In this document: in pieces, positions 5,577 through 12,161 of the stretch
Layout of the letters: each line of letters starts with the position of its first letter
Numbering within the stretch: the stretch's first letter is position 1
Source of the DNA: Balneolia bacterium
Lineage (GTDB): Bacteria > Bacteroidota > Rhodothermia > Balneolales > Cyclonatronaceae
NCBI GenBank assembly: GCA_003566635.1
Contig: PXCK01000112.1
Location: 1-50,355 of the forward strand
Length of the DNA: 50,355 nt
Reading direction: 5' to 3'
Program-made: the position numbers and the translations under genes
Notes under the pieces: model-generated
What the model saw: only the letters and a program-made list of their open reading frames with translations
Database searches by the model: none
Told to the model about the DNA's origin: nothing

Positions 5577-6134
5577 ATGGATTTTTTAACTCAACCCTGG
5601 CCCTGGTATGTTGCCGGTCCTGTTATTGGTCTTTTCATTCCCTTTTTATTAATTACGGCCAATAAAGCTTTAGGTATTTCATCAAGTCTACGCCATGCGT
5701 GTGCGGCTTGTGTTCCCGCTAAAGTTCCTTTTTTCGATTATGATTGGAAAAAAGACGGAAGCTGGAATTTGTTATTTGTACTAGGTGTAGTTATTGGTGG
5801 CGTCTTGGGCGGTTTTGTATTTGCCAATCCCGATCCGATTAACCTTTCACAATCAACCATAAGTGATCTAAGCGAACTCGGAATAACCAATTTTAACGGA
5901 CTTGTTCCGGCAGAAATTTTTAATTGGAGCTTCGTATTTACACTTCCGGGATTCATCATTCTTGGAATTGGTGGGTTTCTTGTTGGCTTTGGAGCACGTT
6001 ATGCCGGTGGCTGTACATCCGGTCATGCGATTAGCGGTTTATCAAACCTTCAACTCGCTTCATTATTTGCCGTTATAGGCTTTTTCACCGGCGGTTTAAT
6101 TATCACTCACCTTATTTACCCAATTTTATTTTAA
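5577..6134 (+). CDS. YeeE/YedE (PmpA-like) sulfur transport protein, first half
   Basis: Multi-[11 protein letters not shown] and [17 protein letters not shown] motifs. Confidence 0.85.
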
Positions 6135-6145
6135 GAGGCAGATAG

Positions 6146-6553
6146 ATGAAATATTTATTATTTGGAACAGCATTTGGATTTGTATTGATGAAAGCAGAAG
6201 TAATTTCCTGGTTTAGAATTCAGGAAATGTTTCGCTTTCAAGATTTTCACATGTATGGAATTATAGGTTCTGCAATTCTTGTAGGTATAATTTCTATACA
6301 AATTATTAAGCGTCTTGGAGTTAAAGATATTTACGGCAATCCTATTAAACTTTCTGATAAAGATCCATCGCAGATAAAGCGATATTTGATAGGAGGCTCG
6401 TTATTTGGATTTGGTTGGGCACTGACCGGCGCATGTCCCGGACCATTATTTGCGCTTCTTGGTAGCGGCATAACTGTAATATTGGTACCTATATTTTTTG
6501 CTCTGGTTGGTACCTGGGTATATGGATATTTACAGCCGAAATTGCCCCACTAA
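6146..6553 (+). CDS. YeeE/YedE (PmpB/DUF6691-like) sulfur transport protein, second half
   Basis: GGSLFGFGWALTGACPGPLFALLGSG motif; immediately follows the first half. Confidence 0.85.
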   Translation: MKYLLFGTAFGFVLMKAEVISWFRIQEMFRFQDFHMYGIIGSAILVGIISIQIIKRLGVKDIYGNPIKLSDKDPSQIKRYLIGGSLFGFGWALTGACPGPLFALLGSGITVILVPIFFALVGTWVYGYLQPKLPH

Positions 6554-6607
6554 TCCCAAAAAAGATTTTAAAATTAAACAAACAACAACTAAACAGAGGA
6601 TAAAACC

Positions 6608-8032
6608 ATGTTTTTCAAACAAGTATTCGAACCAAAATTAGCACAGTATGCTTATGTAATCGGTTGCCAAAAAACCGGTGAAGCTGTAGTTATCGATCCA
6701 ATGAGAAATGTAGATCAATACTACAAAATCGCTGCAAAAGAAGGCCTAACCATTACCCATGCTGCTGATACACACATCCACGCCGATTATATTTCGGGTT
6801 TGCGCGAATTTGCCGAAAGAGGTGTTAAAGTCTATGCCAGCGACGAAGGCGGCAAAGATTGGAGCTACGAGTGGTTAAAAGGTAGTAACTATAACTATGA
6901 GCTTATCAAAGATGGATTCGAGTTTATGGTTGGTAATATCAAAATAAAAGCTATTCATACACCGGGTCACACACCTGAGCACTTAATCTATAGTGTTACC
7001 GATATGGGTGGTGGTGCTGAAGAACCAATGGGAATTGCAACCGGTGATTTTGTTTTTGTTGGTGATGTTGGTCGCCCCGACCTACTTGAATCAGCTGCAG
7101 GTCAGGCAAATGTAATGGAACCTTCTGCAAGAACCTTGTATAAATCACTCGAAAAATTCAACGAATTACCCGATTATATGCAAGTATGGCCCGGACACGG
7201 TGCAGGTAGTGCATGTGGGAAATCACTTGGTGCTGTACCGGATAGTACCGTTGGATACGAGAAGCGCTTTAACGGTTCTTTGAAGCATGCAACATCAGAA
7301 GATGATTTTGTGAAATTTATTCTTGATGGTCAGCCAGAGCCTCCTCTTTATTTTGCCCGCATGAAGCGCGACAATAAAATAGGTCCTGCTGTCTTAGGTA
7401 CTTTACCAACGGTTAGCAAAGTAAGTGTAGAAGATGTTGCGAATGCAGTTAACGAAGACAATGTTGTAGTGTTAGATAGCAGAGAGCGTGCTGCGTTTAT
7501 GAATGCGCACCTACCAGGATCATACTTTGTGCCATTCGACAAGCAATATAACACCGTAGCCGGATCTTATGTAACCGAAAACGATACCATGTATTTGGTT
7601 ATTGATGAAGCAAACCTTGCTGGTGCAATCGAAGACTTAACAAATATCGGTCTGGATAACATTAAAGGATACATTACCCCTGCAGAGCTTGACGCTTATT
7701 TACAAAGCAGTGGTAAAGCAGCTTCAATTTCTCATAAGAGCTTCGAAAACTTCGCTACTCAATTGTCAGATTCCAACGTAACCGTTGTTGATGTGCGCAA
7801 GAAAAGCGAATTTGAAATCAGTCATATTCCGGGAGCATTAAACTTTGCTCACACACGTATAGCAGAAAACCTGGATAAACTACCTAAAAACGAAACGCTA
7901 CACGTGCATTGCCAAATGGGCGGAAGATCTGCCGTAGCAGCTGCCTTCCTTAAAGCACAAGGTTTTGATGTCGTTTTTATTGACGGTGATTACGAACTCT
8001 ATGAGAAAGCTAATCTCCCTGTAGAAGCATAA
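6608..8032 (+). CDS. MBL-fold metallohydrolase with two rhodanese domains (persulfide dioxygenase-like)
   Basis: THIHADYISG (THXHXDH-like), HTPGHTPEHLIY, VWPGHGAGSACGKSLG; C-terminal rhodanese loop CQMGGRS. Confidence 0.9.
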   Translation: MFFKQVFEPKLAQYAYVIGCQKTGEAVVIDPMRNVDQYYKIAAKEGLTITHAADTHIHADYISGLREFAERGVKVYASDEGGKDWSYEWLKGSNYNYELIKDGFEFMVGNIKIKAIHTPGHTPEHLIYSVTDMGGGAEEPMGIATGDFVFVGDVGRPDLLESAAGQANVMEPSARTLYKSLEKFNELPDYMQVWPGHGAGSACGKSLGAVPDSTVGYEKRFNGSLKHATSEDDFVKFILDGQPEPPLYFARMKRDNKIGPAVLGTLPTVSKVSVEDVANAVNEDNVVVLDSRERAAFMNAHLPGSYFVPFDKQYNTVAGSYVTENDTMYLVIDEANLAGAIEDLTNIGLDNIKGYITPAELDAYLQSSGKAASISHKSFENFATQLSDSNVTVVDVRKKSEFEISHIPGALNFAHTRIAENLDKLPKNETLHVHCQMGGRSAVAAAFLKAQGFDVVFIDGDYELYEKANLPVEA

Positions 8033-8121: not shown

Positions 8122-8151
8122 ATTCACTTGCAATATTAAATAATTGGCAAT

Positions 8152-8181
8152 ATTATCAATAAAATATTCAATATTGATAAT
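8152..8181. promoter_or_regulatory. Inverted-repeat operator candidate ATTATCAATA-N10-TATTGATAAT
   Basis: Perfect 10-bp arms ending 4 nt before the likely ATG (8186) of the AbiEi-like gene. Confidence 0.5.
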
Positions 8182-8185
8182 TTTT

Positions 8186-8923
8186 ATGTCTGATGCTCTG
8201 AAAACCAATGCGTTAAAAGAATATTTTTCTGAATCGGATACTTTTAATGCCCATGACTTAGCTGAATTCTATAAACAGTATGATGGTAACTTAAACAATA
8301 ATACTCTCCTATCACGCATCTATAATTTGAAGCAAAAAGGCATTATTGCTTCAAAGGAAAGAGGTGCATTTACACTAGGTAACCGAAGTTTGTCGGCGTT
8401 TATCGAACACGGCTTGGCTTCTGATCTTTCCGAACAGCTCCAAACTCAATTCCCCCATATTAAACATTGTGTATGGAGCACTTCTTTATTAGACAAGTTA
8501 AGCGATTACATTGCTCCAATAGAGTTTATTCTTATAGAAACCGACAAGCAGGCTACAGAATCTGTATTTGATGAACTAAAAGTTAACGGGCCCGGTATTT
8601 TCCTTGAACCCGATCAGGTATTACTCGAGCGCTATATTCCCATGTTTGACAAACCGGTTATTATTCATCCCTTAATTAGTGAAGCTCCACTTGAATCAAA
8701 AAAGGGTCACCTTATTCCAACACCTGAAAAAATTATTGTAGACCTAATTTGTGAACCAGCATTATTTTCAGCTTGGCAAGGAACCGTTTTACGAGATATA
8801 GTTTCTACCATTTACAGTAAGCTTATAGTAAACAAAAGTGCTTTATTCAGGTATGCAAGAAGACGAAACCGTGAAGAAGAACTAAAGAAACTATTGAGAT
8901 CAACCAATTATCATCAATTATAG
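8186..8923 (+). CDS. AbiEi-like / DUF6577-type wHTH antitoxin-regulator homologue (start revised from 8144)
   Basis: N-terminal helix-turn-helix region (FNAHDLAEFYKQYDGNLNNNTLLSRIYNLKQKGIIASKERGAFTLG) and C-terminal PTPEKIIVDLICEP...RDIVSTIYSKLIVNKSALFRYARRRNREEEL reminiscent of AbiEi antitoxins. Confidence 0.6.
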   Translation: MSDALKTNALKEYFSESDTFNAHDLAEFYKQYDGNLNNNTLLSRIYNLKQKGIIASKERGAFTLGNRSLSAFIEHGLASDLSEQLQTQFPHIKHCVWSTSLLDKLSDYIAPIEFILIETDKQATESVFDELKVNGPGIFLEPDQVLLERYIPMFDKPVIIHPLISEAPLESKKGHLIPTPEKIIVDLICEPALFSAWQGTVLRDIVSTIYSKLIVNKSALFRYARRRNREEELKKLLRSTNYHQL

Positions 8924-8929
8924 TTGACA

Positions 8930-9421
8930 ATGTTATTAATTCAAAAAATCGGCAAAAAGTTATTTTTTATTAGTCTTATTTTTACAAGCAGCGGTTTTAT
9001 GTTTAACAGCATAGGCCAGTTTTCCGCCGGTCTTGGACTAGCAGCCGAAACAGATAACAATATGGCCGGATTACAAATTCATGCGAAGTACTTAGGAAAA
9101 AGTACGCCTCTTGGGTTTACTATTAATGGTGTATACTTTTTCCCGGAAGAGAGAGATGAAATCGAACTCGACGCCTGGGAAGCCAATTTAAACATCCAAT
9201 ATCATTTGGATGTACGATTTATTTTTAACCCTTATTTAATATCCGGAGTCCATTATTTTAGGCAAGAATTTGGTAATGAACATACTGATAGAATCGGATT
9301 CAATACAGGCTTTGGTTTGGAATCGGATTCAGACATTGTGCGTTTCTATTCCGAATTAATAGTAAGCATTAGTGAGCGAACCCGTTTTTTAGCAGCGGTT
9401 GGTTTACGTTTTCCCTTTTAA
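8930..9421 (+). CDS. Small outer-membrane beta-barrel-like protein
   Basis: Signal-like N-terminus, alternating amphipathic strands, ends in aromatic F (GLRFPF); ATG at 8930 preferred to the TTG at 8924. Confidence 0.55.
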   Translation: MLLIQKIGKKLFFISLIFTSSGFMFNSIGQFSAGLGLAAETDNNMAGLQIHAKYLGKSTPLGFTINGVYFFPEERDEIELDAWEANLNIQYHLDVRFIFNPYLISGVHYFRQEFGNEHTDRIGFNTGFGLESDSDIVRFYSELIVSISERTRFLAAVGLRFPF

Positions 9422-9678
9422 CCCGAATTATTCACGAAAGTATAAAATTAAACCTTATACTATTATAAATATTGTATTTAGAAAAATACCAAACTCACTC
9501 AAATTTGGGTGTGGTTAGGATGCTGCACTCCGAGCGAAGCGATTCCCACGCAGTGAAATTCCATGCTAGCTGCGTTGAAGATGAAAAAGTCATACTCAGG
9601 GTACTTAGGTACCTTTCCGCTGATTTTCCACCTTCGCCTTGCTACCAAGAAAATTTTTTGGTGAATAATCCGGGTTAA
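9418..9678. mobile_element. MITE-like TTAA element, complete (TTAA-CCCGAATTATTCAC ... GTGAATAATCCGGG-TTAA)
   Basis: Inverted termini flanked by TTAA on both sides; ~253-bp interior with no convincing CDS. Confidence 0.7.
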
Positions 9679-9696: not shown

Positions 9697-10755
9697 TTGA
9701 ATAAGAAACATCAACTAAACGGAAAAGTCGGATACTTGGCAGAAGACTTTGTCATGCTGTTTCTTCTTGCCCTTAATTTGCTATGGATTTCTTTCGACTG
9801 GTTGTTTCAAAGTGAAACCTTCCGAAGTCTCGTTTTTTCTGTGTCTGAGTCATTTCATGACTTTTATCTTTTTGAAATCCATCCCGATTTCATTTTTTAC
9901 GATCTCATATTTATCAGCATATTTCTGACAGAGTTTTTTATCCGGTGGGCTGTTTCTGTCAGCCGTAACGAGTACGAAAAATGGTACTACTACCCTTTTA
10001 TTTATTGGTATGATATTGTAGGATGTATTCCTATTGGTGCCTTTCGTTTTATGAGGTTATTCCGTATAATAACAATAATAACACGTCTCCACAGGCTTGG
10101 ATGGATTGATATAACCGGTTTTGGTCCTTATAAGCTCTTCGTCAAATACTCCAATTTATTCGTGCAAGAGGTGACTGACAGAGTAACTTTAAAGATTTTA
10201 GCTAATGTCAAAGATGAGTTAGAAGGCGGTAGTATTGTTGTAGACAGGATTGTTGAAGAAGTAGTACTGCCACGCAGAGATGAACTGACCGCATGGATAG
10301 CAGCTCGTCTTCGTTTAGCAGCAAAAGCCGGATATCGTTTACACGAAGATGAAATTCGAACTTATGTTCAGCACAGAATCAACATTGCAATAGAAAACAA
10401 CAAAGAACTTGGCACTCTTGAAACCGTTCCTTTTATGGGCAAGTTTGTTGTTAAACAGATTGAAGGAGCCGTAAGCGACATTGTATTTAGCGTTGTTCAT
10501 GGAATAATTGATGATTTAGGTTCCGAGAACAACACTCACTTTGTAGATAATATATCCGATCTACTTATAGAACAAGACAATTCAGTAGAGCATCCTGAAT
10601 TAGCGACACTCAACAATTCTATATCCGAGTTAATTGGTGATAGTATTCTAATTATAATGGACAGAGTGAAAGATAAACCAACACCGGAATCAGTACTTAA
10701 AGAGGGTGAAAAGCGCTTAAGCAAAAGTTATAGCTCTACGATAAATAATTCATAA
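9697..10755 (+). CDS. Membrane protein with voltage-sensor-like S1-S4 domain, no pore module evident, long soluble C-terminus
   Basis: S2-like YDLIFISIFLTEFFIRW; S3-like YWYDIVGCIPIG; S4-like FRFMRLFRIITIITRLHRLG (RxxRxxR); hydrophobic segments stop after S4. Confidence 0.6.
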   Translation: MNKKHQLNGKVGYLAEDFVMLFLLALNLLWISFDWLFQSETFRSLVFSVSESFHDFYLFEIHPDFIFYDLIFISIFLTEFFIRWAVSVSRNEYEKWYYYPFIYWYDIVGCIPIGAFRFMRLFRIITIITRLHRLGWIDITGFGPYKLFVKYSNLFVQEVTDRVTLKILANVKDELEGGSIVVDRIVEEVVLPRRDELTAWIAARLRLAAKAGYRLHEDEIRTYVQHRINIAIENNKELGTLETVPFMGKFVVKQIEGAVSDIVFSVVHGIIDDLGSENNTHFVDNISDLLIEQDNSVEHPELATLNNSISELIGDSILIIMDRVKDKPTPESVLKEGEKRLSKSYSSTINNS

Positions 10756-10900: not shown

Positions 10901-11857
10901 ATGGAATCACTTCTTAGTAATTTTGCCTCGCCGATTGTGCTTGCCTTTGTACTTGGGATAATGGCAAAACTAATTAAAAGCGATCTTGAAATTCCACGCC
11001 CTCTTTATCAGTCCATTTCTATTTATTTATTGCTGGCTATTGGCTTAAAAGGTGGGGTAGAGCTGAGTAAAACTCCATTTATGGAATTTTTAGGACCTGC
11101 AGCCATAACTGTATTATTGGGAGTTATTACGCCCATCACAGCTTTCCTGGTACTTTTTTATTTAGGTAAATTTGATATTGATAACTCAGCAGGTATTGCT
11201 GCACATTATGGCTCTGTTTCTGTGGTTACGTTTATTGCTGCCATTGCTTATGTGGAAGCTGCGGGAGGAACGCCGGAAGGATTCCTTCCTACCCTTGTTG
11301 CCATACTCGAAATTCCCGGGATAATTGTTGCTCTATTAATACCTTTAGCTTTTGCAAAAAAGAAACAATCTATAAAAAAAGCTACGCGTGAAGTATTAAC
11401 AGGAAGTAGTATTGTATTATTGGTTGGTGGTTTAATTATAGGATATTTGTCAGGACCGGTGAAATTCGAGGCAGTTGAGCCATTTTTTGTAGGTGGTTTT
11501 CAGGGGGCGCTAGTTATTTTTCTCCTTGAATTAGGCATGATAACAGCTGGTCGACTTCGGGATTTAAAAAAGGTAGGTGCTTTTTTACTTATGTTTGGAA
11601 TTTTCGTACCTATTCTTCACGGTATTTTAGCTATATGGTTAGGACAAATAGCCGGTTTAAGCATAGCAGGTAGTACTGTTTTCGCAGCTATGGTTTCCAG
11701 TGGTTCGTATATAGCAGCTCCGGCAGCTGTACGTATAGCATTACCTAAAGCAAACCCATCATTATATTTAACAGCATCGCTTGGTATTACTTTCCCTTTC
11801 AATATAATTTTAGGAATACCAATTTATTTTATCGTTGCACAATGGATTGGAGGATAA
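10901..11857 (+). CDS. SbtA-like sodium-dependent bicarbonate transport family permease
   Basis: Multi-TM protein resembling SbtA; C-terminal half AAMVSSGSYIAAPAAVRIALPKANPSLYLTASLGITFPFN aligns by eye with SbtA. Confidence 0.85.
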   Translation: MESLLSNFASPIVLAFVLGIMAKLIKSDLEIPRPLYQSISIYLLLAIGLKGGVELSKTPFMEFLGPAAITVLLGVITPITAFLVLFYLGKFDIDNSAGIAAHYGSVSVVTFIAAIAYVEAAGGTPEGFLPTLVAILEIPGIIVALLIPLAFAKKKQSIKKATREVLTGSSIVLLVGGLIIGYLSGPVKFEAVEPFFVGGFQGALVIFLLELGMITAGRLRDLKKVGAFLLMFGIFVPILHGILAIWLGQIAGLSIAGSTVFAAMVSSGSYIAAPAAVRIALPKANPSLYLTASLGITFPFNIILGIPIYFIVAQWIGG

Positions 11858-11858
11858 T

Positions 11859-12161
11859 ATGCCATTAACAAACGCTTATATGGTTACAATAATCACTGAA
11901 AGATATTTAAAGAAGGATATACTTGAGGGGATAAAAGAACTTGGAGCAAAAGGATATACTACATCTGATGTTAGCGGAGATGGTTCACGCGGAATAAGAG
12001 CTACCGATTTTGAAGGCAGAAACGTTAAGATTGAAACAATAGTCAATAAGGATACAGGCAATAAAATACTCGATTTTATTGCTGATAAATATTTTGAAGA
12101 CTATGCAGTCATCACCTACGTTTACGAAGTTAAAGTTGTACGTGGTGATAAATACTTTTAA
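11859..12161 (+). CDS. PII-like SbtB family protein (start revised from 11835)
   Basis: LGAKGYTTSDVSGDGSRGIRATDFEGRNVKIETIV resembles SbtB GATGYTVVDTGGKGSRNVRS...NVKFEV; ATG 1 nt after the sbtA-like stop. Confidence 0.8.
   Translation: MPLTNAYMVTIITERYLKKDILEGIKELGAKGYTTSDVSGDGSRGIRATDFEGRNVKIETIVNKDTGNKILDFIADKYFEDYAVITYVYEVKVVRGDKYF

Follow-up and report, generated by a model that had tools for sequence, protein, structure and literature searches.

Voltage sensors that stand without a pore had been thought restricted to eukaryotes. A 2023 review reported from database searches that a pore lies alongside every prokaryotic voltage-sensing domain (VSD), and placed the origin of the Hv channels in an early eukaryote (PMC10377628). 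One gene in the window, the whole 50,355-nucleotide stretch of Balneolia DNA analysed here, raises the question of whether bacteria also have such proteins. A first-pass annotation had read its product as a bacterial VSD lacking a pore and joined to an unknown cytoplasmic domain. The open-licence literature yielded no description of a pore-less bacterial voltage sensor.

The gene and its architecture

The encoded protein is composed of an S1–S4 voltage-sensor-type region (residues 4–133, approximately) and a soluble helical C-terminal domain of ~190 residues, with no pore (Table 1). The TTG codon is the likely start, because the sole in-frame ATG nearby encodes Met20, inside S1, and initiation there would cut away half of this helix; relatives from the same family also have an ATG at the position matching the TTG. 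The first ~140 residues had been described as S1–S4-like on the strength of three motifs, FLTEFFIRW, YWYDIVGCIP and FRFMRLFRIITIITRLHRLG. All three are found where they were described, and the assignment is borne out by the conserved charges and the K+ channel homology described below.

Table 1. Features of the pore-less VSD gene, in window coordinates
Feature	Residues	Position	Strand	Characteristics	Evidence
Whole gene, pore-less VSD protein	1–352	9697..10755	+	352 aa, TTG start	Open reading frame; homologues equal in length and architecture
S1 (core)	16–37	9742..9807	+	N27 and D34 (N-x6-D spacing)	AF2 helix 4–37; N27 63/64, D34 64/64
S1–S2 loop	40–61	9814..9879	+	Two short helices; spirochaete relatives insert a ~120–240 aa domain here	AF2; spirochaete members
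S2	65–89	9889..9963	+	D69; charge-transfer motif F76-x-x-E79-x-x-x-R83-W84	AF2; conservation among 64 members
S3	98–112	9988..10032	+	Short helix; Y105-D106 and P112 (D-x5-P)	AF2 helices 98–102, 104–109; conservation among 64 members
S4	114–133	10036..10095	+	R117-x-x-R120-x-x-R123 and R130	AF2 helix 114–133; conservation; aligns to K+ channel S4
Cytoplasmic all-helical domain	143–326	10123..10674	+	~190 aa	AF2 helices 143–177, 180–190, 194–234, 248–275, 279–294, 300–326

Conserved charges in S1–S4

Conservation was counted over 64 non-redundant members, leaving out one 27%-identical Acinetobacter row. Seven positions in S1–S3 are invariant (D34, D69, W84, Y105, D106, G109 and P112), as are the S4 arginines R117, R120 and R123; R130 is arginine in 59 members and lysine in five. 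N27 and F76 are each retained in 63 of the 64 and E79 in 60, with aspartate in the other four, and R83 is present in 52. The intramembrane charges thus rank among the best-conserved positions of the protein. S4 carries three regularly spaced arginines and the offset R130, fewer than in many Kv channels.

Judged from the sequence, this layout is of the VSD type: S2 has an FxxExxxR charge-transfer motif, S3 an aspartate, S4 RxxRxxR, and S1 an asparagine with an acid seven residues further on. S4 arginines, counter-charges in S1–S3 and the S2 charge-transfer motif, the marks of the VSD superfamily, are all present. The spacing of N27 and D34 is the same as that of N25 and E32 in NavAb. The motif match exceeds what chance would give, because the residues involved are invariant or nearly so in the 64 homologues and S2–S4 aligns to K+ channels. 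The conserved charges could instead serve folding, or ion or proton conduction.

Relationship to voltage-gated K+ channels

Searches of Pfam, NCBIfam and the PDB with the 352-residue protein alone gave no match, and the family profiles had no significant match among solved structures. A profile of 65 VSD regions aligned by hhalign with five K+ channels bearing the TVGYGD motif at a probability of 97.6 (E = 4.4e-12), the match extending over S2–S4 with S1 outside it. These five channels match KvAP (6UWM) at E = 6e-32 and carry Ion_trans/Ion_trans_2. On this alignment S2–S4 is homologous to the same segments of K+ channels. The S3–S4 turn is very short both in the pore-less family and in the small K+ channels, and the aligned sequences lack the stretch that forms the S3b tip of KvAP.

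Additional evidence comes from L143, a short pore-less gammaproteobacterial relative whose Ion_trans match is restricted to its S1–S4 (positions 4–114; E = 1.8e-5) and, at 24.5 bits, falls 0.5 bit short of the cut-off of 25. Its best PDB match is 1ORS, the isolated KvAP VSD (E = 0.046). Ion_trans was also matched weakly by 10 of 43 members, with a best E-value of 0.0025. The comparison with Ion_trans proposed in the first-pass annotation gave weak or near-threshold matches for these relatives and none for the window protein by itself. Homology of S1–S4 to known VSDs is carried by the K+ channel alignment over S2–S4 together with the L143 match.

Absence of a pore after S4

No transmembrane segment follows S4 in any of 43 aligned members (the highest 19-residue Kyte–Doolittle mean is 1.41), none of the 43 contains a K+ or Na+ selectivity-filter motif, and Pfam gave no Ion_trans_2 match for the protein or for family members. 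The S5–P–S6 pore domain of six-transmembrane voltage-gated channels (Ion_trans) is therefore missing, as the early reading had it, because hydropathy stays at or below 1.41 and filter motifs are lacking.

A truncated or decayed potassium channel might be expected to look similar, since S2–S4 is related to K+ channels. However, every aligned homologue is pore-less and has the C-terminal domain in common, open frames of similar length occur in hundreds of genomes, and the Balneolia genome separately encodes an intact Kv-like channel and has an ORF for a NaChBac-like one. Homologues with a clear pore, which would have pointed to truncation, were not seen. The gene is not a truncated channel, because none of the aligned homologues (~335–414 residues) has a pore; their shared architecture refutes decay of a channel, which we regard as a very improbable origin.

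Predicted structures and the C-terminal domain

The full-length AlphaFold2 (AF2) model has a pLDDT of 82 and a pTM of 0.51; a model of the VSD alone reaches 86.6 and 0.70, respectively. In the latter, four helices follow one another in order (4–37, 65–89, 98–109 and 114–133), corresponding to S1, S2, a short and broken S3, and S4. A Foldseek search of the PDB with the VSD model returned eight matches at E ≤ 10, all of them voltage-gated channels (NavAb, NavCt and KCNQ2), though none of them is strong (best E = 1.8, TM ~0.38, rmsd ~8 Å). Because only voltage-gated channels were matched, but at E ≥ 1.8 and TM ~0.38, the modelled fold agrees in kind with these channels but is, on its own, no proof of a canonical four-helix bundle. 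The full-length model gave no informative Foldseek match.

The ~200 residues after the sensor had been expected to be soluble and helical, and AF2 indeed models an all-helical domain of ~190 residues. Its conserved positions are E158, D161-R162, E174, P192, Y223 and D273. No relative of this domain was found in Pfam, NCBIfam or the PDB, and it may be a new effector module. Together with the hhalign result, the L143 match and the conserved charges, this upholds the early description of a bacterial VSD joined to an unknown cytoplasmic domain. Pfam weakly suggested DUF445 (PF04286) for the C-terminal domain; hhalign ruled this out (probability 0.3%, E = 0.17).

Distribution of the family

The family is previously uncharacterised and spans several bacterial phyla. 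In scans of named genomes, the single sequence retrieved no relative, and a profile of the alignment matched 487 encoding stretches. The best 80 of these 487 come from Balneolales MAGs, many Marinobacter species, Wenzhouxiangella, Calditrichota, spirochaetes, Pseudomonadales and others. Homologues occur in 26 of 60 related genomes, mainly in two families of the order, and the Balneolales MAGs that have them are, judging by isolate codes, probably largely from soda-lake sediments. Most members are 335–414 residues long, with the same architecture throughout.

A sample of 396 genomes from the phylum of the Balneolia host gave twelve full-length members; seven of them belong to a single family within its class, one that would be Salinibacter-like. 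The class of Marinobacter gave nine strong full-length matches among 369 genomes, and in Marinobacter's family the gene is present in 139 of 151 genomes, mostly as a single copy. Diverged members are found in Acinetobacter baumannii and Halomonas. In A. baumannii the homologue (L108:4803–5849) has an acyltransferase gene on one side and minCDE on the other; its annotation as ‘preprotein translocase subunit SecA’ is apparently mistaken.

The spirochaete relatives (L146–L157, L159–L164) depart from this architecture. In long forms of ~440–560 residues an insert of 120–240 residues separates S1 from S2, whereas short forms span ~260–320 residues. Six genomes (G865, G888, G893, G908, G944 and G951) each encode a long form together with a shorter second match; a heteromeric pair is possible. 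Several long and short paralogues have lost S4 arginines or S2/S3 acids, and voltage sensing therefore need not extend to the whole of the wider superfamily.

Gene neighbourhood

A gene for an SbtA-like Na+/bicarbonate transporter (10901–11857) starts 145 bp downstream of the VSD gene, in agreement with the ~150 bp noted earlier, and is followed directly by one for a P-II-like SbtB (11859–12161). The two thus lie side by side in a non-cyanobacterial genome. A conserved link to this pair, proposed for a synteny survey, was not borne out: SbtAB is absent from every other locus examined, the adjacency is confined to this genome, and an operon or functional link was rejected.

Neighbouring genes vary by lineage: Marinobacter has TamA/TamB and an amidase, one Balneolales group has QueG, Acinetobacter has an acyltransferase and minCDE, and the closest relatives have NMT1 and DUF6577. 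For this reason a partner could not be deduced, and the variation argues against a fixed operon partner. In the window, a DUF6577 protein is encoded upstream at 8144–8923, and in each of the four closest relatives examined such a gene adjoins the VSD gene or lies near it. Farther upstream (5577–8032), two YeeE/YedE-like membrane proteins and then a metallo-beta-lactamase/rhodanese protein resemble, judged from their translations, a sulfur import and persulfide-oxidation cassette. PADLOC gave scattered weak matches only. A MITE-like repeat of ~261 bp (9418–9678) with 22-bp terminal inverted repeats ends 18 bp upstream of the VSD gene, and at least ~40 copies, 78–97% identical, are present in the same genome.

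Comparison with known voltage sensors

The pore-less family shares with KvAP-type prokaryotic Kv channels (Ion_trans, PF00520) the S2 FxxExxxR, S3 D-x5-P and S4 RxxRxxR motifs, in segments that are homologous. KvAP has an S5–pore–S6 module and an S3b/paddle tip, whereas the family has neither and adds an unrelated helical C-terminal domain.

Hv1 is likewise a pore-less S1–S4 protein with three S4 arginines, FxxExxx(K/R) in S2 and an aspartate in S3. Hv channels are identified by a tryptophan in S4 (RxWRxxR) and an acid in the middle of S1 (PMC10377628). The bacterial family differs in both respects and in its ~190-residue helical C-terminal domain. The S4 sequence is R-x-(L/M/F)-R-x-x-R, with no tryptophan at this place among the members listed, and the mid-S1 position is asparagine in 63 of 64, the acid D34 lying seven residues later. 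By its helix position and the N-x6-D spacing, N27 would correspond to Hv1 D112.

A parallel in organisation is Ci-VSP, in which a four-helix sensor without a pore is joined to a separate cytoplasmic domain, as predicted here, and which also lacks the Hv1 S1 acid and S4 tryptophan. In Ci-VSP, gating charge moves with no accompanying proton current (PMC10377628). The pore-less family differs in being bacterial and in having a cytoplasmic domain unrelated in sequence; no PTEN-like phosphatase domain was matched in it by Pfam or NCBIfam. The sensors of TMEM266/HVRP1 and sNHE (SLC9C1), compared by description only, are likewise used where there is no channel pore, or separately from it; they are eukaryotic and have other partner domains.

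Possible functions

With a probability slightly above even, we read the gene as encoding a pore-less voltage-sensor protein in which a KvAP-type S1–S4 with a shortened S3–S4 turn is joined to a cytoplasmic domain that is all-helical and specific to the lineage. We infer voltage sensing from the sequence features described above. The inner-membrane potential would position S4, and its displacement would pass through the linker (residues 134–142) and the helix 143–177 to the cytoplasmic domain, which may regulate some partner or membrane process. The working principle would be that of a sensor with a separate effector, as in eukaryotic voltage-sensing phosphatases, and not that of a channel. Because no gene neighbour is conserved, the protein probably acts on its own or in an oligomer. 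It may plausibly operate in high-salt, alkaline or marine membranes exposed to large ion gradients.

The same architecture could belong to a proton (cation) leak channel, voltage-gated or resting, that conducts through the sensor in the manner of Hv1 or an omega current and uses the C-terminal domain for oligomerisation or regulation. Proton conduction is possible because the isolated Shaker sensor, without its pore, leaks protons at hyperpolarised potentials (PMC13095418). Conserved acids in S1, S2 and S3 of a pore-less sensor are consistent with such a role, the short S3–S4 turn may widen the outer vestibule, and the hosts are salt-lake and marine organisms that face pH and Na+ stress. However, S4 reads RFLRLLR and not RxWRxxR, mid-S1 has Asn27 and not Asp or Glu, and a simple leak would not need a large conserved cytoplasmic domain. 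Because the hallmarks of Hv1 are missing, we favour a voltage-coupled protein of the Ci-VSP kind over a proton channel, and consider conduction unlikely. The other serious rival is a passive or differently gated membrane anchor derived from a VSD, which would keep the fold and its salt bridges for stability and leave the sensing of lipid, osmotic state, ion strength or a ligand to the cytoplasmic domain or, in spirochaetes, to the extracytoplasmic domain. The weak structural match to solved voltage sensors and the short S3 would suit an anchor, as would the 120–240-residue S1–S2 insert of the spirochaetes and the several paralogues without S2/S3 acids or S4 arginines. In the core family, however, the S4 arginines and their counter-charges are conserved beyond what would be expected of a passive anchor, and this explanation, though serious, seems unlikely.

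Implications

If the pore-less voltage-sensor reading is correct, the family could represent widespread true membrane-potential receptors of bacteria, relaying the potential to cytoplasmic effector domains of a new class, while the spirochaete versions would add an extracytoplasmic domain in the S1–S2 loop; we hold this broader proposal to be quite possible, if somewhat short of probable. The presence of a pore-less family over several bacterial phyla, near-universal in the family of Marinobacter, contradicts the claim that a pore accompanies every prokaryotic VSD (PMC10377628). It would also make voltage sensing in bacteria directly testable by an ordinary knock-out in a culturable genus.
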